From an uncultured Oscillochloris sp. (GTDB lineage: Bacteria > Chloroflexota > Chloroflexia > Chloroflexales > Chloroflexaceae), in NCBI GenBank assembly GCA_903920315.1, contig CAIXLU010000220.1:1-50039 (forward strand): DNA of 50,039 bases, read 5' to 3'. Both the position numbers and the translations under genes were made by a program. This document shows, one piece after another, positions 21,202 through 45,855 of the stretch (position 1 is its first letter; each line of letters begins with the position of its first letter). The notes under the pieces are model-generated. The model searched no databases. It saw only the letters and a program-made list of their open reading frames with translations, and was not told the DNA's origin.

Positions 21202-21203
21202 AG

Positions 21204-24200: not shown

Positions 24201-24240
24201 GCGGGTGGCCTTTCGTCAGGACACACGGGCAGGAGGAGCC

Positions 24241-25286: not shown

Positions 25287-25297
25287 CATGTAGGCGC

Positions 25298-25347
25298 TAC
25301 ACGGAATCGCTTACTTCACGTTTTTACACGTATCTCGGCTGTACCCG
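25298..25347 (-). repeat. Right 50-bp terminal inverted repeat of the Tn3-family element
   Basis: Exact reverse complement of the left end. Its outer boundary lies only 33 bases upstream of the cas6 start codon, so any cas6 promoter must use transposon-end sequence or lie within these few bases. Confidence 0.95.
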
Positions 25348-25379
25348 ACATCCGCCGCCATATGCTCCAGAAGGCCGTT

Positions 25380-26360
25380 ATGAGCGAACCTCTTTCCCTG
25401 CCCGATCTGCCCCTGCTGCGCACCCGGCTCACCTACCGCATGCATGCCGATGCCCCGATGCCTGCCTACAAGGGTGGCATGCTGCGCGGCGGCTTTGGCT
25501 ACGCCTTCCAGCGTGAGACCTGCCCGTCGCCCTGTTGGGACAAGGCCGACGCCTGCGCGCAGCCGGTGATCTGCCCCTACCGCTGGGTCTTCGAGACCCC
25601 CCGACCTGCCGGAGTCGAGCAATTGCACAATCTGCAAGACGTGCCGCGGCCCTTCGTGATCGACCTCCCGAACGACCAGCGCACCCTGGTGGAGTCCGGC
25701 GACAGCATGGAGTTCGGGCTGACTCTGATCGGTCGCGGGATCGACTACCTGCCCTTTTTCCTCTTCGGCTTCGCACGCTTGGGTGAGATCGGGCTAGGCG
25801 TGCGCCGGGCGACGGCGATGGTCGAGCGGGTGATCGCGCTGGAGAACTGGGGGCACAGCGGCCCGACGCTCTACGCCGACGGGCGCTACCAGAGCAGCAC
25901 CGCCCCACTGCCGCAGATCACGATGGCAGACATTGTCGTACGCGCAGCGACGCTGCCGGGCGACCTGCGGATCACCCTGCGCACCCCGCTGCGGGTGAAG
26001 TCGCACGGTGCCTACCTGACCCAGATCGACGTACCAGCGCTGGTGCGGGCGGCCTGCTGGCGACTGTTGGCCCTGGCGACCTTTCATGGTGCGGGGCCGT
26101 GGGATGCCGACTACCGGCCCGTGGTGGCAAATGCCGAGGCGGTGCGGGTTACGGAGGCCGAGGTGCGCTGGGAGGAGTGGGATCGCCACTCCGACCACGG
26201 CGGGGCGCCGCAGCGCATGCAGCTTGGCGGCATCGTTGGGCGGGCGCTGCTGCGCGACGTGCCCGAGGCGGTGCGGGTGGCGCTCCTCGTGGGTAGCTTG
26301 GTTCATGTCGGCAAATCGTGTGTCTTTGGCCACGGCAATTACCGGCTTGATCCGGTGTAG
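25380..26360 (+). CDS. cas6: Cas6-family CRISPR RNA endonuclease
   Basis: A 326-residue protein. Start at 25380 is preferred over 25362 because AGAAGG lies just upstream. Family marks: N-terminal PAYKGGMLRGGFGYAF, a Cys set (CPSPCWDKADACAQPVICPYRW), FLFGFARLGEIGLGVRRA in the first RAMP fold, then the C-terminal glycine-rich loop VGSLVHVGKSCVFGHGNYRL typical of the Cas6 C-terminal domain (PF10040). Cas6 cuts pre-crRNA at the repeat. It is convergent with the rest of the locus, 400 bases away, and directly abuts the Tn3-family element. No CRISPR array is visible, so its substrate must lie elsewhere. Confidence 0.85.
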   Translation: MSEPLSLPDLPLLRTRLTYRMHADAPMPAYKGGMLRGGFGYAFQRETCPSPCWDKADACAQPVICPYRWVFETPRPAGVEQLHNLQDVPRPFVIDLPNDQRTLVESGDSMEFGLTLIGRGIDYLPFFLFGFARLGEIGLGVRRATAMVERVIALENWGHSGPTLYADGRYQSSTAPLPQITMADIVVRAATLPGDLRITLRTPLRVKSHGAYLTQIDVPALVRAACWRLLALATFHGAGPWDADYRPVVANAEAVRVTEAEVRWEEWDRHSDHGGAPQRMQLGGIVGRALLRDVPEAVRVALLVGSLVHVGKSCVFGHGNYRLDPV

Positions 26361-26761: not shown

Positions 26762-27703
26762 TCAGCTAAGATCAGCGTGTGGGACATCGACGACCCCAGG
26801 ATAGAGCAGCGTGTAGAGTGTCCAGATCACCTCGCCAATTGGTGATCGTTGCAGGCGCTGGGACGCTTGATACTCAAAGAGGTAGGCATCACTCCGCTTC
26901 GGCAAGACAGCAACGGTGTCAATATCTGTCCCCGCCTCACGTAGGAGCGTAATAGGGAGATCATCCCAGACAAAACTCATCGGTAGGGGGGCATAGCGAA
27001 CGAGTTCGCTGCTGCTCTGATAAAGATAAACCATCTCCACCTGCGGGCCATGCGCACGTGAGCCAAGGAGCAGGGCGAGGTCACGCGCAGTGGGTACTAA
27101 GCCCTTGAACCCACTGGTGATGTTAAGCGTGAGCGTATCATTCGGCCCAAGGGCACGATACTCCTCATACACCGCTCGCACATAGTTCCTGAGACCGTTG
27201 CGCACAAAGTTCTGCCGGGTGCTGGCCGGGTCAAGGGTATGCTCATCGGTAATGGAGAGTCCCCTGATTGGGGCAATGTACAGTTGCTCGTGCGCCATAT
27301 GCGGGTAGCCCGACTTCTGCGGGATGGCGTTCTCAGGGTCAACAAATGCCTGTTCGAGCAGGCGGGCGCAAAATTCGCCGCCCCGCGTGTCTGAGCTGAG
27401 CAGCACAAGTCGCGTAATAGGCAGCGGCGGGGCATCATCCGGCCTGCGCTCAGTCAATAACAGGCTCACCGCAGCAATCTCGGCTGGCGACACCATGCGC
27501 TGCTGGCGGGGCTGCATGCTCCGCCCCCAGTTACGTCCCAGACCACGCAGCAGGTCGCGCTGGGCGATCTCAAGTGCCGCTGGTCGTTCGCTGCCTAACG
27601 CCAGATTCTCGGCAATGCGATCGTAGTTCTGAGATTGCACGCTACGGAGCGCCTCGCAGCTCAACGCGCTCACGCCAATGTGGGTGATCAGCGTGTGGCT
27701 CAT
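26762..27703 (-). CDS. CARF-domain protein (APE2256/TIGR02619-like), no effector domain seen
   Basis: A 313-residue protein ending the operon. An N-terminal HTLITHIGVSAL strand-loop, a mid-protein LVLLSSDTRGGEFCARLLEQ and the diagnostic LTLNITSGFKGLVPTARDLALLLG (the NxTxGFK...P motif) mark a CARF Rossmann-like domain of the APE2256 type, which binds cyclic oligoadenylate. The remaining C-terminal residues (about 225-313) show no HEPN (RxxxxH), PD-(D/E)XK or other nuclease motif. Possible roles are a cyclic-nucleotide sensor or ring nuclease. The ATGA overlap with csx19 shows translational coupling. Confidence 0.8.
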   Translation of the reverse strand: MSHTLITHIGVSALSCEALRSVQSQNYDRIAENLALGSERPAALEIAQRDLLRGLGRNWGRSMQPRQQRMVSPAEIAAVSLLLTERRPDDAPPLPITRLVLLSSDTRGGEFCARLLEQAFVDPENAIPQKSGYPHMAHEQLYIAPIRGLSITDEHTLDPASTRQNFVRNGLRNYVRAVYEEYRALGPNDTLTLNITSGFKGLVPTARDLALLLGSRAHGPQVEMVYLYQSSSELVRYAPLPMSFVWDDLPITLLREAGTDIDTVAVLPKRSDAYLFEYQASQRLQRSPIGEVIWTLYTLLYPGVVDVPHADLS

Positions 27704-28314
27704 TGTGCTGCTCCTACCGCTGCGCCGCGTTGAAAGCGGGGGTCGTTAGCAAGTTTGAAATTCCCATCGTAGGCAAGGTAGCGTACAACCAGGCGCTCGG
27801 CGGCAAATGGCTGGCGCTGATCTGGCCAACTGGCACGATACTCCTGTACCTTCAGCGCAGCCCGCGACCCGCTCCAGCTTGCGGGCAGGTAGCTGGCTAG
27901 ACCGGGAATGCGTTCTTCGCGCCAGGCATTGTCGCGGTATTCGCCCCAGAGCATGAGGTTGCGCGAAGGTCCTTCCGGGCGTAACGGCAGGACGCCCTGC
28001 ATGCCAAGCCGCTGATGTTCGTCCGTGTCGGCGATTAATACTGCGTGGAGCGCACCGCTCGCCAGTTGCTCCCAGCGCAGGTCGGCGGCGGGCGTGAACA
28101 GGCGACCGCGCGGCCAGCGCGCTGCGAAATCCCTGACATCTGCGGCCGCAAGGTCGTCGGCGATCAGCAGGCCCGCCTTGCCCGTCTGACGTTCGTCGTC
28201 GCACCACGCATTGAGCGGATCGTCGCCTAGCGTGGTAATCGCCTGTGCGAACCAGCCCGTGATCATAGCGGCATCGATTTGGAGGTAGCCAATCCGGCTT
28301 ATCGTATCGCTCAT
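27700..28314 (-). CDS. csx19: Csx19-like type III-D accessory protein
   Basis: A 204-residue protein. The ATG at 28314 overlaps the upstream stop as ATGA; the longer upstream extension is rejected. The patterns LLIADDLAAADVRDFAARWP, LMLWGEYRDNAWREERIP, a Trp/Tyr-rich tail (EYRASWPDQRQPFAAERLVV) and the size resemble Csx19 (TIGR03984), a marker of subtype III-D with unknown role. Family assignment rests on remembered motifs and synteny with csx10, so moderate confidence. Confidence 0.65.
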   Translation of the reverse strand: MSDTISRIGYLQIDAAMITGWFAQAITTLGDDPLNAWCDDERQTGKAGLLIADDLAAADVRDFAARWPRGRLFTPAADLRWEQLASGALHAVLIADTDEHQRLGMQGVLPLRPEGPSRNLMLWGEYRDNAWREERIPGLASYLPASWSGSRAALKVQEYRASWPDQRQPFAAERLVVRYLAYDGNFKLANDPRFQRGAAVGAAQ

Positions 28315-29384
28315 TGTGGTGCCCCCCCCGCGCCTGTTGGCCAGCCGATGCATACGCCGGGTAAGGTGGCGGCAAACTGTGGCCATGGCGGCGCATCCCA
28401 GTTAGTCTGGTTTTCGCCTTCGGCGGTACGCAGCGCCCACGCCTTGCCAAGCGTCGCGGTCACGGTCTCAACCCGTGTGACCGACAAATCGATCATGGCG
28501 AGCGCTGCATCCTCCTGTAGGCGGTACCTCGTAGCGAGGTCAGACGTGCGCGTGATCTGGCTCAGGCTTGGGATACGGAAGTGATCCGTCTCGGGCGTAT
28601 AGCGTCCATACCACTGCCAGCGCAGCTCGCGTACCGTGAGCTGCACACGCCCCAGGCCGCGTCGGACGCCATAGCCCAATCTGAGATCTTCTGTATCAAT
28701 TGCCGCCAGCAAATGCGCCAGGAGCCCAAGCTGCCAGAGCTCGTAGTTGACTAGGGTCAGGGTGGTGGTGAAACATCCCGCGCTGATCGCCTCATATTGA
28801 AATTTAACATTGTGCGCAGCCGCGCCGCTGTGGCGGTCGATCCCGACCCCATCGCGCACCACAACCCGGGCCTGGCGCTCGTCGGCCAGCCATGCATCGG
28901 CGATTGTCCAGCGCCCACGCAGGGCGCTGTGGCCGAAGCATCGCTCGATTGGCCCGGCCTGGGCGTAGATCTCCGATCCCGAAGGGCTGTGGTCAGCTTT
29001 GCGCTGCGCATCCACCCAGGCACTGGCTACGTTCTCGAAGGGGTCGGCCTGTCGGGCCAGATCTGGCCGCCAGCGCGACAGCAGCAGCTCTGCGCCGTGA
29101 CGCAACAGACCCTTCAGACTGCTCCCTGGCAGATAAAAGCGTGGCCCATCGGCGGTCTGCGTCCAGACGCAGGCCATGTCGAAGGCCTCGTCGGGGTTGT
29201 TGTAGCTCCCGTAGCCACGGCCCTCGCGTCGGCGCGGCTTGTCCGGATCGCGCCGGGCATCTGGGTGGAAGACCAGCCGGTCGCGCTGGCCTGCTTCATG
29301 ATGTCGACCATCTTTGATCAGGAGCGGCGAACGCGGGCGGATCTCTAGCTGCACACGCAGTTCGTTGAAGCGTTGGGCGAACAT
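28311..29384 (-). CDS. Cas7/Csm3-like RAMP protein (long form)
   Basis: A 357-residue RAMP. N-terminal strand LRVQLEIRPRSPLLIKDG, then a long insertion (about residues 25-80) before FYLPGSSLKGLLRHGAELLL, which is the RAMP glycine-rich loop and helix. RCFGHSALRGRWTIADAWL, VVRDGVGIDRHSGAAAHNVKF and LGYGVRRGLGRVQLTV complete the Csm3-like pattern. A C-terminal extension of about 90 residues is unusual. Cas7-type subunits form the backbone along crRNA, and some cut target RNA. Asp residues just before the glycine loop (AFDMACVW) could provide cleavage. It starts directly at the stop of the upstream RAMP gene. Confidence 0.85.
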   Translation of the reverse strand: MFAQRFNELRVQLEIRPRSPLLIKDGRHHEAGQRDRLVFHPDARRDPDKPRRREGRGYGSYNNPDEAFDMACVWTQTADGPRFYLPGSSLKGLLRHGAELLLSRWRPDLARQADPFENVASAWVDAQRKADHSPSGSEIYAQAGPIERCFGHSALRGRWTIADAWLADERQARVVVRDGVGIDRHSGAAAHNVKFQYEAISAGCFTTTLTLVNYELWQLGLLAHLLAAIDTEDLRLGYGVRRGLGRVQLTVRELRWQWYGRYTPETDHFRIPSLSQITRTSDLATRYRLQEDAALAMIDLSVTRVETVTATLGKAWALRTAEGENQTNWDAPPWPQFAATLPGVCIGWPTGAGGAPQ

Positions 29385-30202
29385 TAGTCCACCTCCAGCG
29401 TCCGGCGAGTCCAGCCGTCAGCCTGGGGCGCACCGTAGCGCGCCGCGCCATCAGCGAGCAGGGCGGCCCGCAGCCCTGCGCGATCCAGTTGCAGACGGTA
29501 GACCCGCAGGTCGCGCAGCTCGACCTGGCCCACGCCGCGAGCGAGACGCCCGCCCAGGCTGATCTCACCCTGCTCAAGTAGGCGCAGCGCGAGTGCAAGC
29601 AGCTTCGTCCATGTACTCTCACACGCTGTGGGCATTTCGCAGCGCAGCAGCAGTTCGAAGCACTGCCCGCTGGGCAGCACCTCGAAGTCATACTTCACCT
29701 GCTCGCGCGCCGCGCCGGTGTCGCGGTCAATGCCCACACCGTGGCGCACCTCGCCGGCCAGCACCGGCTCGGGCTTATTCGCGTCACGCTTTGTGGGATA
29801 GAGATCGGGGATGAGCAGCGGTGATGCCCAGAATACCGTGCCGAAGAGCCGCTCGGCAGGGGTGAGCCACGTATCAAGCAGTTCCTGCAAGCGCACCTCC
29901 GATGTGGCCAGGTCGAGCGACTCGATACGCTCTCGGATATTCTTTTCGCGATCCTCATCATCATCGTACAGCTCGCCGAGCCGATCATCCGGGAAGAGCG
30001 CGGGCGCATAGCTATAGACCGCACTCCGCAGTACGCCGCGCAGCGACGAGCCGGGGATGTAAGCCCGTCCGTGGCTATCGCGCACCACCGTGGCGTCGGT
30101 GACGGTCTGGTCGCTGCCGAGGCTGCCGCCGCTGCCGCTGCCAATATGCAGCGCTCCTTTAAGCACGAGCTGGCCAGTGAATGTGTAGCGCGTTAGTTCC
30201 AT
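29384..30202 (-). CDS. Cas7/Csm3-like RAMP protein
   Basis: A 272-residue RAMP close to canonical Csm3: GQLVLKGALHIGSGSG, VTDATVVRDSHGRAYIPGSS and LRGVLRSAVYS, then RLFGTVFWASPLLIPDLY, VRHGVGIDRDTGAAREQVKYD and LGGRLARGVGQVELRDLRV. The Asp of VTDATVVRD aligns with the Csm3 catalytic aspartate (D33 in S. thermophilus Csm3, from family knowledge), so target-RNA cleavage is plausible. The start overlaps the small-subunit gene end by 10 bases. It is one of four RAMP backbone candidates in the operon. Confidence 0.9.
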   Translation of the reverse strand: MELTRYTFTGQLVLKGALHIGSGSGGSLGSDQTVTDATVVRDSHGRAYIPGSSLRGVLRSAVYSYAPALFPDDRLGELYDDDEDREKNIRERIESLDLATSEVRLQELLDTWLTPAERLFGTVFWASPLLIPDLYPTKRDANKPEPVLAGEVRHGVGIDRDTGAAREQVKYDFEVLPSGQCFELLLRCEMPTACESTWTKLLALALRLLEQGEISLGGRLARGVGQVELRDLRVYRLQLDRAGLRAALLADGAARYGAPQADGWTRRTLEVD

Positions 30203-30684
30203 TGAAGCTGCCCCCCTGCCTTTGTGAGCGCCTTGGTAAAGGTTTTACTCTGAGTAAAGATGATGAGCAACTGGAGCAGGCTCTGGGCGCGTAGTAGGCG
30301 CACGTGGTTGAGCCAATCCGTCACTTCGTTATCGGCTAGCCGTAATGGGTCGAGCAACTTCTGTTCATCCGCGCTGGGCCGTGACCCGCTGCCGATCTGG
30401 CTGAGCAGCCAGCCATAGACGGCATACTCTGCGCCCTTGCGGTCGATGCGCTGCTGCAAACGCTTGATCTCCTCGATGCCGTAGGTGAGCCGTGCTGCAT
30501 GATCAAGTCGCTTGGCGTGCCAGGCGAAGCTGTTGGCGATCCCATTGAGCCGATGGTTCGGTAGCTCCATGCCGCCGAGCTGTCCATACAGATTGCTCGC
30601 CATCGTGCTGATCTCTACCCGCAGGGCGGTGAGCAGTTTCGCACGGCGTATCTCCTGCTCGCGCAGCGTATCTTGGTCTACCAT
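30193..30684 (-). CDS. Small helical protein, probable Cas11-like small subunit
   Basis: A 163-residue almost entirely helical protein. The ATG at 30684 sits within the csx10 stop region and follows a very good GGAGGAGG. Helices such as EQEIRRAKLLTALRVEISTM, RLNGIANSFAWHAKRLDHAA and LLRAQSLLQLLIIFTQSKTF have the size and charge of type III small subunits (Csm2/Cmr5/Cas11). No sequence signature is available, so the call rests on size, helicity and its place between csx10 and cas7 genes. Confidence 0.6.
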   Translation of the reverse strand: MVDQDTLREQEIRRAKLLTALRVEISTMASNLYGQLGGMELPNHRLNGIANSFAWHAKRLDHAARLTYGIEEIKRLQQRIDRKGAEYAVYGWLLSQIGSGSRPSADEQKLLDPLRLADNEVTDWLNHVRLLRAQSLLQLLIIFTQSKTFTKALTKAGGQLQWN

Positions 30685-31829
30685 CGACGTTCCTCCTCCG
30701 CCTCGCGATAGTCGTGAAAGGGGTGCAGTAGCCGAACCTGGCCGAAGCCTTCCGCGCAGCGTTCGCCCAGGCTGTGCTCCTCGACCGCGTGCCACCAGGC
30801 AAGCGCCGTCGGCAACTCGTGCGTGGCGACCCCGAACACCCAGACCGAACCCTGGGCCACCGCCAATTGTGGCGGGCGCGGCAGACGGCGGATCTGCTCC
30901 CAGCCGCCGATCCAGTGTGTCGCCTGAAGCGCATACACCAACTCCATCGAGGTAGGCACACGCTGTTGATAGCGACTCAACACCGCGTGCGGATCGGCGC
31001 TGCTACAGGCGAGCAGGTAGTTGTCGCGCAGCAGTGTATCCGACTCGAGTGTCACCGGCAGCAGCCGCTGGCTATGATCGGCCCCAGCCAGCGTGCTGAA
31101 CCGAGTGATCGCCGCGACCAGCGCATGGTCGTCTCGTTCCGGCTCCGGGGCCGACGTCATCTGGCTGATCTCCACAAGCCCAAGCCCCCGCGAACGCCCC
31201 TGGCCAACGGTGATTGTCGGGCGGGCGTCGAGCAGTTTCGCTAGCACGGTTATCAGATGGTCCGGCCCACTGATCGTTGCCCGTAGGCACTGACCAGTTT
31301 CCAGCGCCTCGAAGCTGTAGAGCTGGCCATCGGCGGCCACCCCGCGCGTGATGCCCGCCGCAGGTGCCCGCTCAATTGCGGTGCGGCTGATTAGCCGCCG
31401 CCGAGCCGTAAGAGGTTCCCATCTGCCCTTCCATGTGTCTTCGCAGACGAATGTGTCCCCGACCGGCTCCATATCATCCGGCTCTGCCTCGCGCAAGAGC
31501 TGGGTTAGCAGGTCACTGACACCCTCATCCCCATCCGCGAACCAGCCGCCGCGCTTTTCCGTGGCGGCGCTCTGGGGTACGATCCAGGTGCGCCCGTTTA
31601 GCTGTTGCGGCCATGCGTTGCCAAAGCGTAGCTGCCCCTGCACGAAGATCGCCTGAAAGTGCCCCTCGTCCTGCGTACCGTAATGTTCCCGCCAGAGCCC
31701 AGCAATGCCGCCGCGTAGGACGGTGCCGCTGAGATAGTCTGGCGAGCGGGTTATCTGCCCTGGCGAGGTCGGGCGCTGGGCGATAACCGTTGGCGAGAGG
31801 AGCTGGAGATCGAGCGTGAGCTTGCTCAT
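30678..31829 (-). CDS. csx10: Csx10-like RAMP (Cas5-group) of type III-D
   Basis: A 383-residue RAMP. The ATG at 31829 overlaps the upstream stop (ATGA). N-terminal LTLDLQLLSPTVIAQRPTSP, TRSPDYLSGTVLRGGIAGLW and QGQLRFGNAWPQ match the Csx10 opening (TLDYIPGSTLRGALA-type loop). A second RAMP half ends with TVGQGRSRGLGLVEI. The C-terminal part repeats a glycine-rich loop (CAEGFGQVRLLHPF). Csx10 caps the 5' handle end of the crRNA in III-D complexes and, with csx19, is the main subtype marker here. Confidence 0.8.
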   Translation of the reverse strand: MSKLTLDLQLLSPTVIAQRPTSPGQITRSPDYLSGTVLRGGIAGLWREHYGTQDEGHFQAIFVQGQLRFGNAWPQQLNGRTWIVPQSAATEKRGGWFADGDEGVSDLLTQLLREAEPDDMEPVGDTFVCEDTWKGRWEPLTARRRLISRTAIERAPAAGITRGVAADGQLYSFEALETGQCLRATISGPDHLITVLAKLLDARPTITVGQGRSRGLGLVEISQMTSAPEPERDDHALVAAITRFSTLAGADHSQRLLPVTLESDTLLRDNYLLACSSADPHAVLSRYQQRVPTSMELVYALQATHWIGGWEQIRRLPRPPQLAVAQGSVWVFGVATHELPTALAWWHAVEEHSLGERCAEGFGQVRLLHPFHDYREAEEERRW

Positions 31830-32500
31830 AGCCACTCCTCCAGTACTGTGCGCCACTCAGTGGGCTGGTTATTCAGACGAACATGGTCAATACTGATCTC
31901 GCAGCGCCCGAGACCACGGCCTTTGTGCCCGCCAAGGTGGGTTAGATCACGGGTTGCCGCTAGAAGCAACGCGAGATCGCGCTTTGGCTCCGGCGCACTC
32001 AGCGCGCCGTGGATCGTGCTGCTAAAGACGAGACCGGTCTCTGCCAGCTCAAGCCGAAAGAGGCGCTCGTCGCGGGCGACCCGACGTCCCCGGCTGAGGC
32101 TGACGAAGCTACGCGCCCCTCGCACCAGATAGCCATCCAGCGGGCTGGGGCGGGGTTCGTTTTTCTCCTTATTCTCCTCAGATATCTGGCCCACCAACGC
32201 CGTATCGCTAAGATGTGCATCGGCAACACGCAGATCGCCGAGGCGCTCGGGGCTGCCGAACAGCCGGTCTTCTACCTCAGGGAGATCAAAAATCGCAGCG
32301 AGTCGGCGCAGGTGGTAGCGCAGGCGGCCTTTGAGTGTTGAGCCGGGGAGATAGGGCAAGATGGTGTTGGGATACTGCGGATGCGGACCCTGCACCATCC
32401 GATCATCGAGGATTTGGCCGAGACCAAGGCCAGTACCGATGTGGGCTGCGCTGTGCAGTTCGACCCGCAGCTGCAGATGGAGCGATCGAGCTTCAGTCAT
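31826..32500 (-). CDS. Cas7/Csm3-like RAMP protein (short form)
   Basis: A 224-residue RAMP starting at ATG 32500 (ATGA overlap with cas10; the longer upstream frame is rejected). Motifs: LQLRVELHSAAHIGTGLG, LPYLPGSTLKGRLRYHL, DRLFGSPERLGDLRVADAHL, a basic insertion with SRGRRVARDERLFRLEL, and LGGHKGRGLGRCEISI. The thumb insertion (RSFVSLSRGRRVARD) replaces the usual AIDRxTG. A likely catalytic Asp lies in ILDDRMV. Backbone subunit of the effector complex. Confidence 0.85.
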   Translation of the reverse strand: MTEARSLHLQLRVELHSAAHIGTGLGLGQILDDRMVQGPHPQYPNTILPYLPGSTLKGRLRYHLRRLAAIFDLPEVEDRLFGSPERLGDLRVADAHLSDTALVGQISEENKEKNEPRPSPLDGYLVRGARSFVSLSRGRRVARDERLFRLELAETGLVFSSTIHGALSAPEPKRDLALLLAATRDLTHLGGHKGRGLGRCEISIDHVRLNNQPTEWRTVLEEWL

Positions 32501-34113
32501 TGTGTCTCCCCAGGGGTGAACTCGACAACTTCGAGCAGGTCGAGCAGCGCGGTTCGGAAACGCAACTGGCCACCAGCATATTCCTGCGTAAACGGGAAAT
32601 AGCTGACGCTGTCCAGCTCGTGCAGCGCGTGCAGCAAGACCGTGCGCTCGGCAGCGCGTAGGCGCAGCGACACGGTCAGCACATCGAGTGTGGCCTGCAT
32701 CCGGCTCTCGGCACATGCATTGTAGAGGTCGGTACGTTTGCTCCCACTGAAGTCCGGCATATGGCGCAGGATCTGGGCTTGGCGCAGCAGTGTCTCGGCA
32801 TGGTCACAGCGGTAGGGCCGACGGGTGAACTCTGCCCCGTCATTGCCCTGGTAGCCCTGCTGGCGCAGGAGCTTGATCTGATCAAGCGCGGGGGTCGTGA
32901 CGATCTGAAAGTCGAAGAACCCGATGCCGACGTCACGCTTGGGATCACGCTGGTGCTTGGCGTTTTTGAGCAGCTCACGGGCACGCTCCTGGAGCTGCAC
33001 AATCGGCATGCTGGCGTGGGCGATTACCACCCCAACCGAGGCGCTGAGCGGATGCTCCAGCCGCACCTCGTGGGCGTCAAGATACGAATGTACAAGCGGC
33101 CCGAACTGGGCGCTGATCATGCGCGCAACGCCGAGACCGTGCTCGGCGGTGCAGACCAGCATCACATCGTCGCCGCCTATGGTGATCAGCTCAAACGGCA
33201 GCTCGATGCTCAGCTCAGCCTGACTCTGCCGCGGCCTATGGCGGGATGGGACATGGTTCTGATAAGCGGTGGCTAGGGCCTGAGCGGTCGCCGTCTGGGC
33301 AGCCGTATCCAACGCTTGGCTGAAGCGGTGGTACGCAGCAAAGCCGCCCTTGCGCACGACCTCGCGCAGGGCACTGCCCACGCTATCGCCGTCAAGATGG
33401 ATAAAGGCCACATAGCCGCTGGGGTGTGACTTCGTCCCAATGGTGTTAAGATCCTGGCTCTCCCTCGGTAGTCCTTGCCAGTTCTCCCGCTGCCGCTCTG
33501 GCAGGGCTTGCCGAAAACCCTCCCAGAAGGGGCTGTCTGCCATCGCGCGGCGGAAGTCGAAGCTCAGCTTACGCTTGCGGGCGGTCTCCTCGCTGAGCAC
33601 GAGCAGCTGATCATCAGGGTCGAGCAGCTGCACCTCAGCCGGGTGCAGGCGGTCGCTGTCGCCAAAGCGCAGCAGTCCGCCGCCGGGCAGCGCACGGATC
33701 TGCGGCTTGCTCGCCTTGCGGCGGGCCAGGGCGCGCGCGCCCTGGCGCTGCGCGTCCAGTTCAGCGACAGGGCCGATGCCCTCGATCGATACCGTCACCG
33801 CGCTGAGGGTGGCGCTGCGGGTCTGACGCTGATAGTTGCCCTCCAGATCTTGGCAGAACGCCTGGGCGCGCGCACCGTCGGCAAACAGGATCGCGCCGGC
33901 CCCGCCGGCCGCGTAGATGATCCGCGCCGGCCCCGGTGACTCCCAGGGGGTCAGCCCATACGCGGCAAAGACGGCGCTGGCACATAGCTGCGTCTCGTCG
34001 GTGAGCTGGCGCACCATCTCGCTTGCGCCACGGATCTCCTTGAGCCGCCCGGTGGTAAAGACATAATCTTTAATATGGTCGGCGTCGAAGAGTACCAAGT
34101 GTGATTGGCTCAT
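32497..34113 (-). CDS. cas10: Cas10 large subunit, GGDD palm intact, no HD domain
   Basis: A 538-residue Cas10. A first palm begins at residue 1 (LVLFDADHIKDYVFTTGRL, EIRGASEMVRQL), leaving no space for the usual N-terminal HD nuclease. The second palm has YVAFIHLDGDSVGSAL and ELITIGGDDVMLV, with GGDD at residues 313-316, so cyclic oligoadenylate synthesis is expected. The C-terminal helices resemble the Cas11-like D4 domain. No Cys4 zinc cluster is evident. The TGATG overlap with the upstream RAMP gene couples translation. Presence of GGDD with a CARF gene in the same operon supports signalling; absence of HD removes the usual DNase. Confidence 0.9.
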   Translation of the reverse strand: MSQSHLVLFDADHIKDYVFTTGRLKEIRGASEMVRQLTDETQLCASAVFAAYGLTPWESPGPARIIYAAGGAGAILFADGARAQAFCQDLEGNYQRQTRSATLSAVTVSIEGIGPVAELDAQRQGARALARRKASKPQIRALPGGGLLRFGDSDRLHPAEVQLLDPDDQLLVLSEETARKRKLSFDFRRAMADSPFWEGFRQALPERQRENWQGLPRESQDLNTIGTKSHPSGYVAFIHLDGDSVGSALREVVRKGGFAAYHRFSQALDTAAQTATAQALATAYQNHVPSRHRPRQSQAELSIELPFELITIGGDDVMLVCTAEHGLGVARMISAQFGPLVHSYLDAHEVRLEHPLSASVGVVIAHASMPIVQLQERARELLKNAKHQRDPKRDVGIGFFDFQIVTTPALDQIKLLRQQGYQGNDGAEFTRRPYRCDHAETLLRQAQILRHMPDFSGSKRTDLYNACAESRMQATLDVLTVSLRLRAAERTVLLHALHELDSVSYFPFTQEYAGGQLRFRTALLDLLEVVEFTPGETQ

Positions 34114-35579
34114 CAGGCCGCTCCTTCCATCCGCAGATCGACGGCTACCGGCACTCGCTTTCCGTCCACGTCGGCTCCGATCTCAAGGCGAAAGCTCACG
34201 AGCGGCGGATCGCTCGTATCGAGCTGATCCGAGAGCCGACGCAGCAGCTTGCGCGAGGCGGCGTCGGTGGGCCGGGCCTGATAGATTCGCTCGTCGGCCT
34301 CGTCTTGCACCGATATGCCTACCCCACCGCGCCGATCAAAGCGCCCACGACGACGTTCGCTTGGCAGTTGCAGTTCGGGGGACAATGCAGACGCGGCGAT
34401 GGGATCTGATAATGTGCTTGCCGATGGCCCTCCGGTCACCGAGGGCAACCCCGCTGCGCCAGGGTAGTAGTCGCTCTCGGCGCGGCCCTGGTATTCCCAG
34501 ATGGGATCCTGCGCGGTACGACCGCGCTGGCTGCGGAAGTAATCGAAGTCAGGGTAGACGAAGTTCTCGGTCTGGGGCCAGTGCGCAATGCTCACAAATG
34601 CCGCATGGCTCGCAGCTCCACCTCCGGCGCGTCGCTGCCATTCATCCCGAGCGCGGTCGCGGCGAATCTGCACCTCGGCGCTGCGATCCTCCAGCGTGGA
34701 CTCGCCATAGCTCAGAAAGCGTGCTGGCACGTCGTTCAGCGCAGATTCAATGTGGAGCTGTGTGATCCTGATCTCCAAACTGCCCAGGCCGAGCGGCTTG
34801 CCGTAGCCGAGCTTGTGGGCAGTGCCATGCTCCAGAATCAGGGCGTAGATCAAGCTATCGAGTTCACCCTCGCTCAGCCCGCTAAAGCGCAGGGTTCCGG
34901 TTAAGATACTGCCTATTGGCACAGCTTCCACAACTATTTCGGGCATACGGCGGCGGCGATAGATAGCGAGCGTCTCGCGGAAGTTCTGCTGGTGGTAGTA
35001 GAACTTGCGCCCCAAAATCAGGCGTTTGCCATCGGGGTGAAAGTAGAAGCTCTCGTGGGCCGGCTTAGGTTGGCCGCCGGCCGGGCGCGACACATCCTGA
35101 TGCGCCAAGGTCACGTTACCAGGAAGAGTGAGATCGTCAATCAGCAGCCGTCCGGCACGACCGACATCGAACTGCTGCTTACTCGCGCTGACCATGCCGA
35201 ACAGGGCATCGCTGGGCGTGAACGTCTTGCCCCCGGACAGGTAGTCTTCTGGGATTCGCCCGGCATACCACGCGCGCCGATTGATTATGCCCAGGGTGCT
35301 GTTGGTCAGCGCCTCGTGGACGCCGCGCAGCATGCCTTTGAGCGAGGTGGCGGGGATGCGCGGCTTCCCCCCCAGGTGCGCGAAGCGGTACAGATTGCCG
35401 CTGTTACGCTGATCGGGTTTACCAGGATCGTTATGGATACACAGCGGCGTAAGCACGATGAGCTGAAAGGTAATCCGGCCCGATAGCCCAGCCGCGCTCG
35501 CCAGAGATAGCTTCGCAGCGAGGCTTGTAGGATGTTCTTCGAGCGGTACAAAATCGTAGGGGTTGCGATAGCGCTGCAT
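34113..35579 (-). CDS. TIGR03986-like large RAMP protein
   Basis: A 488-residue RAMP starting at ATG 35579, which overlaps the fusion-gene stop (TAATG). The opening YRNPYDFVPLEEHP and the loop PRIPATSLKGMLRGVHEALT, ALFGMVSA and LGYGKPLGLGSLEIRI fit the TIGR03986 group of CRISPR RAMPs (two-fold, Csm5/Cmr1-sized). A disordered Arg/Ser-rich region sits at about 350-430. In type III complexes such proteins occupy the 3' or head part of the backbone. Exact position here is unknown. Confidence 0.8.
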   Translation of the reverse strand: MQRYRNPYDFVPLEEHPTSLAAKLSLASAAGLSGRITFQLIVLTPLCIHNDPGKPDQRNSGNLYRFAHLGGKPRIPATSLKGMLRGVHEALTNSTLGIINRRAWYAGRIPEDYLSGGKTFTPSDALFGMVSASKQQFDVGRAGRLLIDDLTLPGNVTLAHQDVSRPAGGQPKPAHESFYFHPDGKRLILGRKFYYHQQNFRETLAIYRRRRMPEIVVEAVPIGSILTGTLRFSGLSEGELDSLIYALILEHGTAHKLGYGKPLGLGSLEIRITQLHIESALNDVPARFLSYGESTLEDRSAEVQIRRDRARDEWQRRAGGGAASHAAFVSIAHWPQTENFVYPDFDYFRSQRGRTAQDPIWEYQGRAESDYYPGAAGLPSVTGGPSASTLSDPIAASALSPELQLPSERRRGRFDRRGGVGISVQDEADERIYQARPTDAASRKLLRRLSDQLDTSDPPLVSFRLEIGADVDGKRVPVAVDLRMEGAA

Positions 35580-37558
35580 TAAGCACCTCCCTCCCGAACC
35601 AGAGTCTCGACCCATGGCACCCAGACCTCGCGCACCGCCGCTTTGAACAGTTCATCGAGCCGACCATCGGGAACCTCGACCCGGATCATGCCAGCATCGC
35701 GCCAGTTGCGTGCGGGGGTCGGCGCGAGATCAGGGAGCAGCACGCGGTTGCACTCCACCGCACGTACTGCAGCGGGCAGATCGGCGGTCGTATCAAGCTT
35801 GGCCAGGCGGGCCTGGGCCGAGACGATGCCGCCGGTCAGCGGGCCAGCAACCTGGCTGTAGAGACATGCAAGCCCAGATACCGCGATCCGCACCTGGCCC
35901 TGGCCTTTGCGGGTGCCGCCGCCGATGGCGCTATAGCCGGCGTTAAACTCCTGGATCGTGAGGGCGAGCAGGGCGAGGTGCCAGAGCGCAAAGTTGCTGA
36001 GGCGCAGCCGACATTCGAGTGGTACGGCGGCGGGCACCAACTCCTCAATGAATGGCCCCTCGCCGACCCCGCCGGTCAGGCGGTCGATGGCCACATGGCT
36101 GCGGCGCTGAGGATCTACGCGTGCAGGCTGCGCGTTAGCCACATAGCTGCGGGGCTGAGGATCTACTGGTTCAGGTTTAGGCTCCGCGTCGCTGAGGGTC
36201 AGCAGACCGGCGTGAACCGTGGTTCCAAAGAGCTGGCTGGCCGCCGAGAGCAACGTGTAGATCTGTCCTGGGGCGATCTGTTCAGGTGTATACTGGTGCT
36301 GCTCCGCCCACAGTTGGTGGCCCTGCGGATCAGCGGTGTAGCCCTCACGGCGCAGCACCTGGATCTCTTCTAAAACATTCTGGTATTCATCGCACTCACG
36401 CAGCGGCGCGAGAGCGGCATAGCGATCAGCAAGCCCTTTCTGTCGTAGCGCCTCAGTGTATCGCTGCTGGGCGCTCTGATCGGTCGGTCGAGCCTGGAGG
36501 TACTGCTCATACAAGGGGATCGCCGCTGTCCAGTCTTCAAGGTTATAGGCGCGATCAGCAGCGCGGAGCAATTGATCTGGTGTGGATGCAGAACGAGATC
36601 GACCGTTAGGTGGCGGCGGCGGCGGCGGGGGAGGCAGTCTACACAGATCATTGAATGATTGGCCGCAATACCTCATCGCAAGATCATTCAGGGTGCGAAT
36701 GATCTTGTAGTAGTCATTGCGTAACGTTTCGGTGCTGCCATAGAACGCCTGTTCACGCTTGTTATCCCTCATGCGCTCCTCAAGCGTATCGAGATCTGGC
36801 AAGAGGGTCGGCTGTTGCACCTGAAGACCATCTCGTAAAGCTTTCAAGCCACGCATCGTATCCATTTCGCTGACCTCTGGTACACCAGGAAACGGTGGCG
36901 TCACTGGCGGCGGCGGCGTAGGAGCAGACGGCGAGTAGACTTGCGTCCATGAGACGCCTAACAGTTTATCATCCCAGATTGGTTCGAGTTCGGCAATATC
37001 AAGCGCCGCTCCAGCCGCACCAGCATCATCCTTACGGATGATCACCACGCCGACGACACAACCGTTCTCATCGACGACTGGGCCACCGCTATTGCCCTTC
37101 TCTAGTCGCTCGGTTCCTCCCAGCGTAGTGAGAGTCCATGTTTGCATCTCTTGATCGTCGTTGTCGAAGCGGCTTGACCCGGTGGATAGTCGGGCGGCGA
37201 CCTTGTGAGACTGGATTGGGTTATCATCATCGAAGCTGAAGCATCCGAACACATCCACCTTGGCACCGTCAACCGCACGCCCCGCTCGTAGCGGCTGTAG
37301 CTGATCCTGACCGGTAAGGTCAGTAAAGAGCAATACAGCTAGATCGCGACCATCACGTTCGCCAATACATTGTGCGGCTGGCGGCTGTTTGCGCACGCGC
37401 ACGCCTGGTAGTTTGGTGCCATCAGCAGCGGAGATGACATGCGCAGCGGTCACCACGAGTACACGACCAGCCTCACGCCACAAGACAAAGCCCGTGCCAA
37501 CGAGCTTGCCACCACTAGTACGGATGGGGACAACTGGTGCCGCTCGCGAGGTCGTCAT
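35579..37558 (-). CDS. Trypsin-like protease - TPR - RAMP fusion protein
   Basis: A 659-residue single frame. Residues 1-205 are a trypsin/HtrA-like protease with complete triad H40 (VVTAAHVIS), D72 (GRDLAVLLF) and S157 (KGNSGGPVV). After a Pro linker, about 230-308 is a helical segment (LPDLDTLEERMRDN, FYGSTETLRNDY, QSFNDLC) like effector-associated domains. A poly-Pro stretch and a TPR motif (AYNLEDWTAAIPLYEQYLQA, about 325-385) follow. Residues about 440-659 match the C-terminal half of Csm3-like RAMPs: ASQLFGTTVHAGLLTLSDAE, VAIDRLTGGVGEGPFIEE and IGGGTRKGQGQVRI. The N-terminal RAMP half, with its glycine loop and catalytic Asp, is missing. It is the first intact gene of the type III operon and follows the Trypco1-like gene by one base. 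It has no signal peptide, so it acts in the cytosol. Protease control by target-RNA binding is inference. Confidence 0.85.
   Translation of the reverse strand: MTTSRAAPVVPIRTSGGKLVGTGFVLWREAGRVLVVTAAHVISAADGTKLPGVRVRKQPPAAQCIGERDGRDLAVLLFTDLTGQDQLQPLRAGRAVDGAKVDVFGCFSFDDDNPIQSHKVAARLSTGSSRFDNDDQEMQTWTLTTLGGTERLEKGNSGGPVVDENGCVVGVVIIRKDDAGAAGAALDIAELEPIWDDKLLGVSWTQVYSPSAPTPPPPVTPPFPGVPEVSEMDTMRGLKALRDGLQVQQPTLLPDLDTLEERMRDNKREQAFYGSTETLRNDYYKIIRTLNDLAMRYCGQSFNDLCRLPPPPPPPPPNGRSRSASTPDQLLRAADRAYNLEDWTAAIPLYEQYLQARPTDQSAQQRYTEALRQKGLADRYAALAPLRECDEYQNVLEEIQVLRREGYTADPQGHQLWAEQHQYTPEQIAPGQIYTLLSAASQLFGTTVHAGLLTLSDAEPKPEPVDPQPRSYVANAQPARVDPQRRSHVAIDRLTGGVGEGPFIEELVPAAVPLECRLRLSNFALWHLALLALTIQEFNAGYSAIGGGTRKGQGQVRIAVSGLACLYSQVAGPLTGGIVSAQARLAKLDTTADLPAAVRAVECNRVLLPDLAPTPARNWRDAGMIRVEVPDGRLDELFKAAVREVWVPWVETLVREGGA
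36090..36166. repeat. 48-bp-period tandem duplication in the RAMP thumb
   Basis: Two near-identical 29-base copies (36090-36118 and 36138-36166) encode VDPQPRSYVA and VDPQRRSHVA on the minus strand. The second lies in the segment leading into the RAMP thumb motif AIDRLTGG. In frame, so protein length changes by 16 residues per unit. Confidence 0.8.
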
Positions 37559-37559
37559 C

Positions 37560-37883
37560 TCACGCCTTCGGCTTCAGAGTTAGCTTCACCACCATATTCG
37601 CACCGGCGGTGCCACGGGCGATAAAGACATTCCCCTCGGTCTCAAAGCTCAGTCCAAGCTCGATCTCGGCCTGCTCAACCTGCATGTCGGCGCTCAGCTC
37701 GTGCCACGCCTCAAGCACCGGGCGGGCCGCATTGACCAGCAGCGGTTTCACGCGGTCGACCGTGTCGGAGAAGCGCTCGTCAATCCGGCGGGCGTCGGAG
37801 GCTGCGATCTGCTACTCCTGTCCGAGCTTGGCCTCGACTTCGATCATGGTGCCGTCATTAAGCTTGATCAGTTGGCTGGGCAT
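37560..37883 (-). pseudogene. Trypco1-like (trypsin-co-occurring) gene with in-frame amber codon
   Basis: From ATG 37883 (ribosome-binding GAGAGGAAC) the frame reads MPSQLIKLNDGTMIEVEAKL, then a TAG codon at 37812-37814, then continues unbroken with IAASDARRIDERFSDTVDRV, an Ala/Val helix, EQAEIELGLSFETEG, VFIARGTAGANMVVKLTLK. Length is 107 codons. The pattern (N-terminal strand, central helix, EVEFGL-like strand, C-terminal VTLT strand) matches Trypco1/CU044_2847, a small domain known beside trypsin-like proteases in bacterial conflict systems. The stop of this gene is one base before the protease-RAMP start. A CAG-to-TAG transition is the simplest cause. Readthrough or reinitiation at a later start (37751) would give a truncated product. 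Confidence 0.75.
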
Positions 37884-38027
37884 GGTTCACGTTCCTCTCA
37901 CATATCACGAAAATCGTCGTTCTTGCCGGGGGAATGTCAGGGGTGAAGGCCCAAGGGGGTAGGAGCCAATGCCAGATGCCGGAATGCAGAGATGCAAGCC
38001 TATCTGGTAGCGATCCTCGACAGAGGG
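37884..38027. promoter_or_regulatory. Probable leader of the type III operon
   Basis: Only 144 bases lie between the first gene of the operon and an IS element. The operon promoter must lie here or in the IS end. No CRISPR-like repeat and no clear consensus promoter is visible. Confidence 0.35.
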
Positions 38028-39104
38028 TAGGACTTACGCAGTTGCCCGCTTGTGCGCCATTCCGGCCTGCGGGAAGCCAGCCAAGACCGCGCTGGGGTTG
38101 GTCAAAAACTGTCGGATGGCAGGACGGATGATGTCCATCTTGGTGGTAAAGCGCGATGCGCCGGCTTCAAGCTCGTGCCAAATCAGGCGCAAGTAGCAGC
38201 GAAGGTCCCAGCCAATATGAGTGCGTTGCGCCCGCTCGCCGCGCGCCATGCAGCGTTCAATCCCACAAAATTGCGTGATATCGCGGTGATAGGTCTCAAT
38301 CGCCCATGCCTGGCGAGCGGTCGTCGCCCGCAGATCCATCGACATCAGCAGATCACTCGTCGCCCAGTACTCCGTGCCACCGTTTGGGGTGTCGATCCGG
38401 AACACCAGGATAAAGCCATAGCCTTTGAGATGGACGCGGCTCCCCGCATTGTGAATGTCACAATCAGCGAGTTGTCGATTCCCGGTTCCGTCCGGATTCA
38501 CCAGGCGGTTTGCCTTCAATGGGGTTTGCCAATGCCACCCGAGGCTTCGGACATATGTGAGGTTTGCCAATCCGCTATACCAACTATCAAAACACGTGTA
38601 GCGTGGGGTGAAACCGCGCTCCTTTGCGGTTTGGAGCATCGCACGAAAATGGTCATTCTTGGTCAGTCCATCAGTAGGCGCATCACACAGGCGATAATCG
38701 CATGGGACGGCGTGTGTGTCGTCACTCCAGACGAGGCTCACCAGGTTGATGCCGGACACGACTTTGCGGTGTGTGCCTGACCAGTGCCGATGCACCCGTG
38801 CGATCATGTGTGCATACGGTTTATCCAAGGTGCTATCGTCGATGATCAATAGCCCACGGGTGCGATCCACAAGCAATTCCGCTTCCTGCCATAGCGGCGT
38901 CGTGTCCGGTTCGAGCCGATACAACAGCCGATTCAGCGCATCGTGGGCCGCCGGCGCTGGCCCCTCCGGGTGGTCTCGTGCCCCCTCGGTACACGAGACC
39001 ACCCGGGGCGCAGCGAGCAGGAAGTTGATATAGTCGAGATCCGTCACCTTGGGTTCGTTCATCGCCTCATCTTACCGCAGGTGAGGCCAACTGCGTAAGT
39101 CCTA
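38028..39104. mobile_element. IS4/IS701-like insertion sequence
   Basis: A 1077-bp element with perfect 17-bp terminal inverted repeats (TAGGACTTACGCAGTTG at 38028-38044 and its complement at 39088-39104) containing one transposase gene. The immediate flanks (CAGAGGG on the left, ATTGGAA on the right) are not repeats of each other, so no target duplication is seen. It separates the type III operon leader from an integrase stub. Confidence 0.85.
38034..39062 (-). CDS. DDE transposase (IS4 superfamily, IS701-like)
   Basis: A 342-residue transposase. Asp residues lie in LLIIDDSTLDKP (first D) and YTCFDSWYSGLAN (second D). The Glu is in WAIETYHRDITQFCGIERCM, which has the YREK-like signature spacing of the IS4 group. 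Full length for the family and within good terminal repeats, so possibly active. It is transcribed in the same direction as the CRISPR operon, so read-through could add to its expression. Confidence 0.85.
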   Translation of the reverse strand: MNEPKVTDLDYINFLLAAPRVVSCTEGARDHPEGPAPAAHDALNRLLYRLEPDTTPLWQEAELLVDRTRGLLIIDDSTLDKPYAHMIARVHRHWSGTHRKVVSGINLVSLVWSDDTHAVPCDYRLCDAPTDGLTKNDHFRAMLQTAKERGFTPRYTCFDSWYSGLANLTYVRSLGWHWQTPLKANRLVNPDGTGNRQLADCDIHNAGSRVHLKGYGFILVFRIDTPNGGTEYWATSDLLMSMDLRATTARQAWAIETYHRDITQFCGIERCMARGERAQRTHIGWDLRCYLRLIWHELEAGASRFTTKMDIIRPAIRQFLTNPSAVLAGFPQAGMAHKRATA

Positions 39105-39421: not shown

Positions 39422-39673
39422 ATGAAGCTCGTTGATGTGACCGCTCTCATCGTTCTGGAGACGTATCGTGTGCGCGTGACGTTCTCTGACACGACCACGA
39501 AGGAGATAGATCGGGAGCCGTACCTGAGCGGCCCGATCTTCCTGCCCGTGCGCGAACCTGCCTTTTTTCGTCAGGCTCTCATCAGCGACGGGGCGATTTC
39601 GTGGCCAAACGGGGCCGACCTCGACACCCAGGTGCTTCGGTATGGCCTGACGCCCGCAGCGTGGGAGTCGTGA
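39422..39673 (+). CDS. DUF2442-like small protein
   Basis: An 83-residue protein with AGGAGAA eight bases before the ATG. The pattern YRVRVTFSDTTTKEIDREPYL, then FFRQALISDGAISWPNGADLD, is typical of DUF2442 (NMB0513-like fold), often the partner of DUF4160 in toxin-antitoxin-like pairs. No DUF4160 gene is present. The last 14 residues (VLRYGLTPAAWES) are repeated at the end of an unrelated gene at 43428-43832. Confidence 0.7.
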   Translation: MKLVDVTALIVLETYRVRVTFSDTTTKEIDREPYLSGPIFLPVREPAFFRQALISDGAISWPNGADLDTQVLRYGLTPAAWES

Positions 39674-39717
39674 TCGTGAGGTGAGGCTTTCCATCGCCGT
39701 CACCGCTGACACCAGGA

Positions 39718-43427: not shown

Positions 43428-43832
43428 ATGAACGAAAGCGCACACGACATGACCGAGCGTATCCCTTGTACCACACTACAGGCGTGGCTGACCTCCGCTG
43501 ATCTCGCGCAGAATCCCCCCCCGCCACTGCTCGTGGATCACGTCTCGGGCTGCGCCCGCTGCCGTAGCGTCCTGCTGCTGATCGTCGTTGACCTGCGGGA
43601 TGCGCCGCTGACGATGGTAGAAACGACGTGTGACCACTGCATGGACGATCTTGCCGCCTCCCTCGACATGGAGCGCGATGCGGGGATCGCGCAGGCGATC
43701 CGCGCCTACCCGCACGTCTGGTGGCATCTCTGGATCTGCGAGGAGTGCGCTATGACCTGCCAGATCGTCCGGGATACCCGTGACACCCCGGTGCTTCGGT
43801 ATGGCCTGACCCCGGCAGCGTGGGAATCGTGA
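43428..43832 (+). CDS. Cysteine-rich small protein, possible zinc-binding regulator
   Basis: A 134-residue protein with paired cysteines and histidines: HVSGCARC, TTCDHCMDDL, WICEECAMTC. This resembles anti-sigma-factor-type zinc-binding or duplicated zinc-ribbon regions. No transmembrane segment is clear. The C-terminal 14 residues (VLRYGLTPAAWES after DTP) duplicate the tail of the DUF2442-like gene 4 kb upstream, so the gene end appears to be chimeric. Function unknown. Confidence 0.6.
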   Translation: MNESAHDMTERIPCTTLQAWLTSADLAQNPPPPLLVDHVSGCARCRSVLLLIVVDLRDAPLTMVETTCDHCMDDLAASLDMERDAGIAQAIRAYPHVWWHLWICEECAMTCQIVRDTRDTPVLRYGLTPAAWES

Positions 43833-44081
43833 TCATGACGTAATCCTCTCCATACATGCCCATTTGCGGATCGCTATGCTATACTTCACGTTACGAGATA
43901 ACAAAACCCACCCGTATGCCGCCAAGCTGTGAGTGGGTTCTGTCGCATCATATTCGTTTCTGCTGTGCCTGGCCATTGTAGCGCCCCCGTGCGTCCCTCG
44001 CAAGGTGCGTTGTAGACCGGCACCGTGACATGTGCCGACGCTGCTGCGTCCTGCACCCCTGTATAGCCGGAAAGTATCTCT

Positions 44082-45818
44082 GTGACAACCCCCACCGCCA
44101 ACGCTGGCCTGATCTGGGCTATTGCCGAACTGCTCCGTGGCGACTATAAGCAGTCCGACTACGGCAAGATCATTCTACCTTTTACGCTGCTGCGCCGTCT
44201 CGATGGGGTACTCGCGCCGACTAAGGGTGCCGTGCGGGTCGAACTGGCCACGCGCAAGGATAGCGGCCTCGATGTGGGACTCTTCTTGTCCAGGGCGGCG
44301 GGCCACAGCTTTTTCAACGCCTCAAAGTTCGATTTCCCGACGCTCCTGGGCGACGCGAATGGCATTCGGGCCAACCTGCTCGATTATGTGGCCGGTTTCA
44401 GCCCGAACGTGCGCGACATCTTCGAGCGCTACGAGTTCGAGAAGTTGCTCGCCAAGCTTGATAGCGCCAACCTGCTCTACCAGATCGTCAGCCGCTTCGC
44501 GAGTATTGACCTCAGCCCGGCGACGGTCTCTAACGAGAGCATGGGCATGATGTTCGAGGAGCTGATTCGCCGCTTCGCCGAGCTGTCGAACGAGACCGCC
44601 GGGGAACACTTCACGCCGCGTGAGGTGATCCGGCTGATGGTGAACCTGCTCTTTATCGCCGATGACGATGCGCTGAGCAAGCCCGGTGTGGTGCGCAGCA
44701 TCTATGACCCGGCGGCAGGGACGGGCGGCATGCTCGCGGTGGCGGAAGAGCATCTGCGGGCGATGAATCCCCAGGCCCGGTTGAGCATCTTCGGCCAGGA
44801 ACTGAACGAGGAGAGCTACGCGATCTGCAAGGCCGATATGCTGATCAAGGGCTACGAGGTCGAGCGGATTATTTGCGGGAATACGCTCGCGCACGATGGC
44901 CACACTGGGCAGCGCTTCGACTATATGCTCTCCAATCCACCCTTCGGCGTGGAGTGGAAGAAGGTTGAGACGGCGGTGCGTGCCGAACACGTCACGCAGG
45001 GCCACAACGGGCGATTCGGGCCGGGCCTGCCGCGTGTCTCGGACGGAAGCCTGCTCTTTCTGATGCACCTGCTGAGCAAGATGCGCCCGGCCAAGGATGG
45101 CGGCAGCCGGGTGGCGATTGTCCTCAACGGCTCGCCGCTCTTCACCGGCGGCGCGGGCAGCGGCGAGAGTGAGATCCGCCGCTGGGTGATCGAGAATGAC
45201 TGGTTGGAGGCGATTGTCGCTCTGCCCACGGACATGTTCTACAACACGGGTATCGCCACCTACATCTGGGTGTTGAGCAACCACAAGACACCCGAGCGCA
45301 CGGGCACGATTCAGATGATCAACGCGGCGACCTTCTTTCAGAAGATGCGCAAGAGCCTGGGCAGCAAGCGCAAGGAGCTGGGCGAGGCCGACATCGAGCG
45401 GATCGTGCAGCTCTACGGGGCTTTTGAGAACGGCGAATATAGCAAAATCTTCGCCAACGACGACTTTGGCTACCGCACGATCACGGTTGAGCGCCCGCTG
45501 TATGACGCCAAAGGCAAGCCGGAGCGCGACCGCAAGGGCCAGCCCAAGCCCGACGCCAGCCTGCGCGATACGGAGAACGTGCCGCTGCGCGAGGACGTAT
45601 CGGCCTACGTGGCCCGCGAGGTGCTGCCGCACGTACCCGACGCCTGGGTGGATGAGGAGAAGACCAAGGTGGGCTACGAGATTCCCTTCACCCGCCACTT
45701 CTACACCTATACCCCGCCCCGCCCGCTCGATGCCATTGACGCCGACCTCCAGCGTCTCGGCGCGGAGATTACCGAGTTGCTCAATGCAATGGTGAAGCCG
45801 GGCGAAGTGGTGCCATAG
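44082..45818 (+). CDS. hsdM: Type I restriction-modification DNA methyltransferase (HsdM)
   Basis: A 578-residue N6-adenine methyltransferase starting at GTG 44082. The N-terminal HsdM_N helical domain ([20 protein letters not shown] and LLRRLDGVL) precedes the catalytic domain with S-adenosylmethionine motif DPAAGTGG (residues 209-216) and NPPF (residues 285-288). The C-terminal region runs to about 560. With HsdS (47964-49292) it makes the modification complex. No HsdR is present in the window; it may lie beyond the right edge or be lost. The 248-base upstream region holds an inverted repeat (AACCCAC with GTGGGTT near 43905-43940). Confidence 0.95.
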
Positions 45819-45855
45819 CCCGGCCTCGGTCGTGGCCCAACAAAGGAATGGCCCT

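Follow-up and report, generated by a model that had tools for sequence, protein, structure and literature searches.

An amber-interrupted Trypco1 gene heading a type III-D-like CRISPR operon in an uncultured Oscillochloris, with Trypco1-trypsin relatives in other Chloroflexales type III loci

Introduction

Trypco1 was named from the VMAP ternary conflict systems (eLife 2020, PMC7159879); in these and related systems a small gene adjoins the gene of a trypsin-like peptidase, which carries sensor or adaptor domains that vary between systems. Proteases are also associated with CRISPR effectors. In the type III-E Craspase, formed by Cas7-11 and TPR-CHAT, a protease and TPRs are tied to a Cas7 effector (PMC9729208, PMC10028731), and in CRISPR-Lon/CalpL (SAVED-Lon) and the SAVED-CHAT protease cascade, as cited in PMC10910872 and PMC12799240, a protease fused to the cyclic-nucleotide-sensing SAVED lies beside type III CRISPR. 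Trypsin pairs are known from other defence systems, as the nuclease-protease pairs of Hachiman, AVAST, Lamassu and DRT, where the partner is an MBL nuclease rather than Trypco1 (PMC12799240). The 2025 CRISPR classification places caspase and Lon proteases among the type III effectors, and its main text is without trypsin (PMC12669027). A search of the open literature, with most subscription papers outside its reach, returned no report of a trypsin with SAVED or CARF, or of a trypsin-SAVED protein with Trypco1, in type III loci, and we found no experiments on any Trypco1 in the literature.

Here we describe a Trypco1 gene in a window of 50,039 nucleotides, the whole of one contig (C220) in the 716-contig, 5.5 Mb draft genome of an uncultured Oscillochloris sp., a filamentous bacterium of the Chloroflexales. 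The gene pair in this window shares its layout with the VMAP systems, but its partner, as at the sister loci, is a type III CRISPR operon, a link that the accessible parts of PMC7159879 do not describe. The window departs from Craspase in that its protease is a trypsin and not a caspase-like CHAT, is covalently joined to half of a Cas7, and belongs to a III-D-like operon that encodes several subunits, Cas10 among them. Two of the relatives (L007, L009) resemble CRISPR-Lon/CalpL and SAVED-CHAT in having a SAVED-protease beside type III CRISPR, and differ from those systems in their trypsin-like protease and Trypco1 partner; the window copy differs further in being without SAVED.

Results

The Trypco1 frame runs on the minus strand from an ATG at 37883 to a TGA at 37560, comprises 107 codons plus the TGA, and is preceded by a ribosome-binding site, GAGGAA, that was rated good (Table 1). 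With the amber codon read as X, residues 7-103 of 107 matched the Pfam profile PF19493 at 47.2 bits, against a curated cut-off of 24.6 bits, so that the match is well beyond chance. A sequence-only reading had proposed a full-length, domain-like Trypco1 frame, flawed only by a TAG at codon 24, that lies one base upstream of a protease-RAMP gene and is paired with a trypsin-like protease. The profile search on the read-through protein confirmed the identity (E 3.5e-12), the frame and its stop were seen as described, a single base separates the Trypco1 TGA from the ATG of the trypsin-fusion gene, and the latter matched both Trypsin_2 (2.8e-12) and RAMPs (8.2e-11). With a profile score above the cut-off and an adjoining trypsin-like peptidase gene, but without an intact open frame, the gene is a broken member of PF19493. 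Its structure model had a low confidence, with a pLDDT of 62, and matched no fold, and a profile search of solved structures with Trypco1 gave no match. In this low-confidence model the amber codon separates the second predicted strand from the long helix, and the truncated stub of 23 residues would hold the first two predicted strands only.

Table 1. Coordinates of features in the window, with the evidence for each.
Feature	Coordinates	Strand	Evidence
Tn3-family transposon	21152-25347		perfect 50-nt terminal inverted repeats, tyrosine integrase, transposase
Cas6	25362..26360	+	PF10040 1.8e-10
CARF protein	26762..27703	-	PF09651 1.1e-9; PADLOC CARF_RelE 4.3e-16
Csx19	27700..28386	-	TIGR03984 1.4e-6; PADLOC Csx19 1.1e-10
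Cas7-like RAMP	28311..29384	-	PF03787 2.1e-19
Csx7/Csm3-like Cas7	29384..30202	-	PF03787 5.4e-22; TIGR02581 2.8e-26
Small protein at the place of Cas11	30193..30795	-	position only; no family match
Csx10 (Cas5 of type III-D)	30678..31856	-	TIGR02674 1.4e-23
Cas7-like RAMP, true start probably near 32500	31826..32716	-	PF03787 1.3e-15
Cas10 with GGDD motif	32497..34113	-	PF22335 8e-20; PADLOC Cas10 4.6e-60
Cas7-like TIGR03986 protein	34113..35615	-	TIGR03986 6.5e-43
Trypsin / EAD-like / poly-Pro / TPR / half-Cas7 fusion, 659 aa	35579..37558	-	Trypsin_2 2.8e-12, RAMPs 8.2e-11, weak TPR
Cas7 C-terminal half, N-terminal half missing	35588..36307	-	alignment to L086, L087, L088 Cas7
TPR helices	36434..36580	-	weak Pfam TPR; pLDDT >80, mostly >90
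Adaptor (EAD-like) segment	36638..36865	-	BLAST to L090, L092 proteins, 41-50%
Trypsin-like domain; presumed triad H40, D72, S157 (GNSGGP)	37025..37510	-	PF13365 2.8e-12; residues from sequence
Trypco1 gene, amber-interrupted	37560..37883	-	PF19493 E 3.5e-12; 55-60% identity to intact relatives
In-frame TAG, codon 24	37812..37814	-	read from sequence; relatives Q, R, Q, E there
Shine-Dalgarno-like GAGGAA of Trypco1	37892..37897	-	read from sequence
IS701-family element	38028..39104	-	NF049921 3.5e-102; terminal inverted repeats; 145 bp upstream of Trypco1

The TAG is the sole internal stop of the frame, and of all the Trypco1 frames compared, and reflects one substitution and no indel. None of the other Trypco1 frames (40 matches among 400 genomes of the phylum; 22 aligned relatives) has a stop at this position, which is variable among relatives (Q, R, Q or E), with CAG in two of them. 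The Trypco1 of L033 was flagged for a second internal TAG, which proved to be the natural end of that gene. Beyond the amber codon, the window copy is identical to its relatives at 44-50 of 79 positions, compared to 39-45 of 81-84 for the intact copy L010, and is thus no less conserved, indicating that the stop is either young or an error. A whole-genome search identified 47 tRNAs, none of them with anticodon CTA or otherwise reading UAG; because the genome is about 96% complete, a missed tRNA of this kind is possible but unlikely. TAG terminates 12 of the 34 large open reading frames of the window, which argues that it has not been reassigned, and we found no in-frame restart codon with Shine-Dalgarno support after the amber. 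The amber itself is an ordinary stop mutation.

Downstream of Trypco1, the operon encodes on the minus strand the trypsin fusion, the TIGR03986 Cas7, Cas10, a RAMP, Csx10, a small protein, the Csx7/Csm3-like Cas7, a second RAMP, Csx19 and the CARF protein. A single operon that combines Cas10, Csx10 and Csx19 with multiple Cas7-like subunits, as seen here, is the mark of type III-D; some single matches fall below the curated NCBIfam cut-offs, and we therefore use the label III-D-like. Three genomes from this family (L086, L087, L088) have their genes in identical order between the first Cas7 and CARF, and comparison with these showed that the Cas7 set of the window is incomplete, its first Cas7 being without the N-terminal half. 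No Trypco1 or trypsin gene was found within 9.7 kb upstream of the L086 operon, and in L087 and L088 cas6 lies upstream of the first Cas7, with the contig ending soon after. The window contains no CRISPR array; the contig ends, and an array may lie elsewhere.

The RAMP part of the trypsin fusion covers positions 67-189 only of PF03787, a truncation that the sequence-only reading had missed. Alignment with the full first Cas7 of L086-L088 shows that the fusion has lost the stretch up to about residue 417, the SSLKG(V/A)LR region included, and has other sequence in its place, and the structure model of the TPR and half-Cas7 parts is good for the TPRs only. A search for a complete copy of the missing half elsewhere found none, the best match being a paralog on contig C105 (33%), a scan of the genome contigs with the whole fusion protein gave no match, and no second copy of the architecture was detected among 82 genomes of the order. 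The simplest account would be that a deletion fused cas7 to a Trypco1-trypsin gene pair lying upstream of it. By Pfam, the L090 and L092 proteins that match the EAD-like segment are CHAT and NACHT proteins. In L090 (G003:C367), the genes for a CHAT protein and a NACHT protein that bear this segment are neighbours, which suggests a homotypic adaptor, one that is unmatched by the Pfam EAD models here.

The neighbourhood as a whole looks disturbed. The Tn3-family transposon directly adjoins cas6, and its transposase frame (21204-24200) has a single in-frame stop, a TGA at 22503-22505; the genome contains no second copy of the element for comparison. No matching target duplication was seen at the flanks of the IS701-family element. 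This second single nonsense codon, together with an IS701 element that is without a matching target duplication, suggests that the neighbourhood is under rearrangement. The half Cas7, the transposase nonsense and the proximity of IS701 to Trypco1 make up this disturbed picture, and the first two, along with a Trypco1-trypsin remnant in G045 (below), can be regarded as signs of local decay.

The nearest Trypco1 relatives, only 55-60% identical to the window copy, occur in G000:C105, G002 (Candidatus Oscillochloris fontis, a species placed in the same genus), G012 and G021, and together with the window copy form one Chloroflexales clade (support 96/86). In G000:C105, G002 and G021 the Trypco1-trypsin pair has type III cas genes as its neighbours, and the contig of G012 is too short to judge; every clade member with enough flanking DNA sits in a type III CRISPR locus with an adjoining trypsin. 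The locus is III-B in G002 and III-D-like elsewhere. In C105, G012 and G002 the trypsin next to Trypco1 is fused to SAVED (E 8e-18, 1e-16 and 6e-14), a domain present on the protease in L007, L008 and L009 and absent from the window fusion. G021 has trypsin and SAVED in successive broken frames on a contig with 1.7-fold coverage, and G045 retains a decayed Trypco1-trypsin remnant beside a III-D-like operon. At the latter locus (L094, G045:C1 from 606000), a CRISPR array of about 98 repeats is followed by the remnant and then by the operon.

Outside the Chloroflexales, 19 Trypco1 loci of the same type, mostly cyanobacterial, contained no cas genes within at most 10 kb on each side (less on short contigs), and RAMP genes were present elsewhere in 13 of the 18 genomes concerned. 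No cas genes were found near 20 other Chloroflexota Trypco1 loci; both searches relied on profiles made from this study's own Cas proteins, and very divergent ones could escape them. Trypsin fusion partners at these non-CRISPR loci include GUN4, TIR plus EAD7, GAF, iSTAND, NACHT and VMAP-C, indicating that Trypco1-trypsin is a transferable module in which the sensor can be swapped. The attachment of this unit to type III CRISPR in the Chloroflexales is a strong lead and not proof, because the loci are few and share one ancestor. The tie of the Trypco1-trypsin class to CRISPR, which the sequence-only reading had drawn from the window operon, thus recurs in other type III loci, and the SAVED-fused relatives demonstrate it more clearly than the window fusion does.

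Two further observations concern the loci of these relatives. Directly after the III-D cas genes, L007 (4761-5912) and L010 (4604-5359) each have a second trypsin-like gene without a Trypco1, so that two different trypsins occur within one CRISPR locus. In L009, the region 10907-14242 beside the III-B Trypco1-trypsin-SAVED locus encodes cas2, cas1, an apparent reverse transcriptase and an RNase H-like gene.

Discussion

The window holds a true Trypco1 gene heading a two-gene Trypco1-trypsin module of a III-D-like operon. We consider it probable that this gene is silenced by a recent nonsense mutation at codon 24, and that the module in intact relatives works through a SAVED-gated trypsin chain. 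The sequences show the domains, the gene order, the stop and the recurrence in other type III loci, and from these we infer the loss of function, the signalling chain and the part played by Trypco1. The amber codon would leave a 23-residue stub and a non-functional Trypco1, and expression of the protease coupled to it might fall as well. On the other hand, the operon is otherwise undamaged and the catalytic residues of the protease persist, suggesting that the module may still work without Trypco1.

Type III Cas10 proteins make cyclic oligoadenylates, and cyclic nucleotides are the ligands of SAVED domains, as established for other SAVED proteins. The simplest view of a trypsin-SAVED protein next to cas10 is therefore that of a protease gated by a signal, which points to a trypsin under the control of cyclic oligonucleotides among the type III accessories. 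In the Chloroflexales type III loci, Cas10 would make cyclic oligoadenylate, the fused SAVED would bind it and activate the trypsin, and the activated trypsin would then cut target proteins. To our knowledge Trypco1 is non-enzymatic. In the intact relatives it would most likely be a non-enzymatic partner (regulator, adaptor or substrate) of the sensor-activated trypsin, and it probably holds, guides or is cut by the adjoining protease. In the window protein, the sensor position is occupied by the EAD-like segment, the TPRs and half of a Cas7.

These intact relatives matter more than the amber codon. In green filamentous bacteria, type III CRISPR systems that are paired with Trypco1 and a signal-sensing trypsin appear to have been little noticed. 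If true, Trypco1-trypsin-SAVED beside III-B and III-D-like loci would extend the type III protease effectors, of which caspase and Lon have been named so far (PMC12669027), to serine proteases, and would offer a system of defined trigger in which to test the role of Trypco1.

The sequence-only reading had left three options for the amber codon. A recent knock-out fits best, and we regard a null mutation as the most likely of the three, followed by a sequencing or assembly error, which is possible and less likely, and then by regulated readthrough, which is unsupported. A base-calling or assembly error, with the Trypco1 gene intact, is the alternative to which we give most room, while still considering it unlikely. 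The draft is in 716 contigs, the two relatives with CAG at the site are one base from TAG, the frame past the stop is fully conserved, and two stops within one contig would also suit a poorly covered contig. However, the break in Trypco1 involves only one substitution and no indel, and the second single nonsense codon in the contig, along with the half Cas7, points to a biological disturbance. Consensus errors that create stop codons are also rare in general.

The window trypsin is strongly diverged, its branch measuring 4.62 changes per column, compared to 0.55 for its Trypco1. A long trypsin branch with a short Trypco1 branch suggests that the protease has changed its setting. Being so diverged and without SAVED, it either now acts through the Cas7 half or belongs to a failing module; the loss of Trypco1 fits both. 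We regard as doubtful the proposal that the fusion is functional, with the trypsin tethered through the EAD-like segment and TPRs to the III-D effector as an RNA-guided serine protease in need of no diffusible signal, and with Trypco1, the partner of an older SAVED-gated version, discarded by nonsense. It is likewise improbable that the loss of Trypco1 was selected, a separate partner having become unneeded or harmful once the protease was fused to Cas7 and had lost its usual sensor. The branch lengths and the EAD-like segment, of which no second copy was found in the genome, are consistent with such selection, but the long branch may also reflect a different origin or relaxed constraint, and the half Cas7 may not fold. 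It is highly improbable that readthrough at the TAG, whether regulated or leaky, meters Trypco1: although the frame is open and conserved past the stop and several residues are tolerated at the position, neither a UAG-reading tRNA among the 47 nor a conserved stop at the site among the relatives compared, the hallmarks of programmed recoding, was found, and TAG is a common stop here. We therefore retain the recent null mutation as the preferred reading.

The remainder of the window has features of its own. Two direct copies of a 72-nt sequence (39623-39694 and 43782-43853) are 86% identical and lie about 4.2 kb apart, flanking genes that gave no family matches. Further along, at 44082-49292, the window encodes type I restriction-modification HsdM and HsdS, interrupted by genes for an AAA ATPase and a DUF4276 protein, and this region constitutes a defence island.
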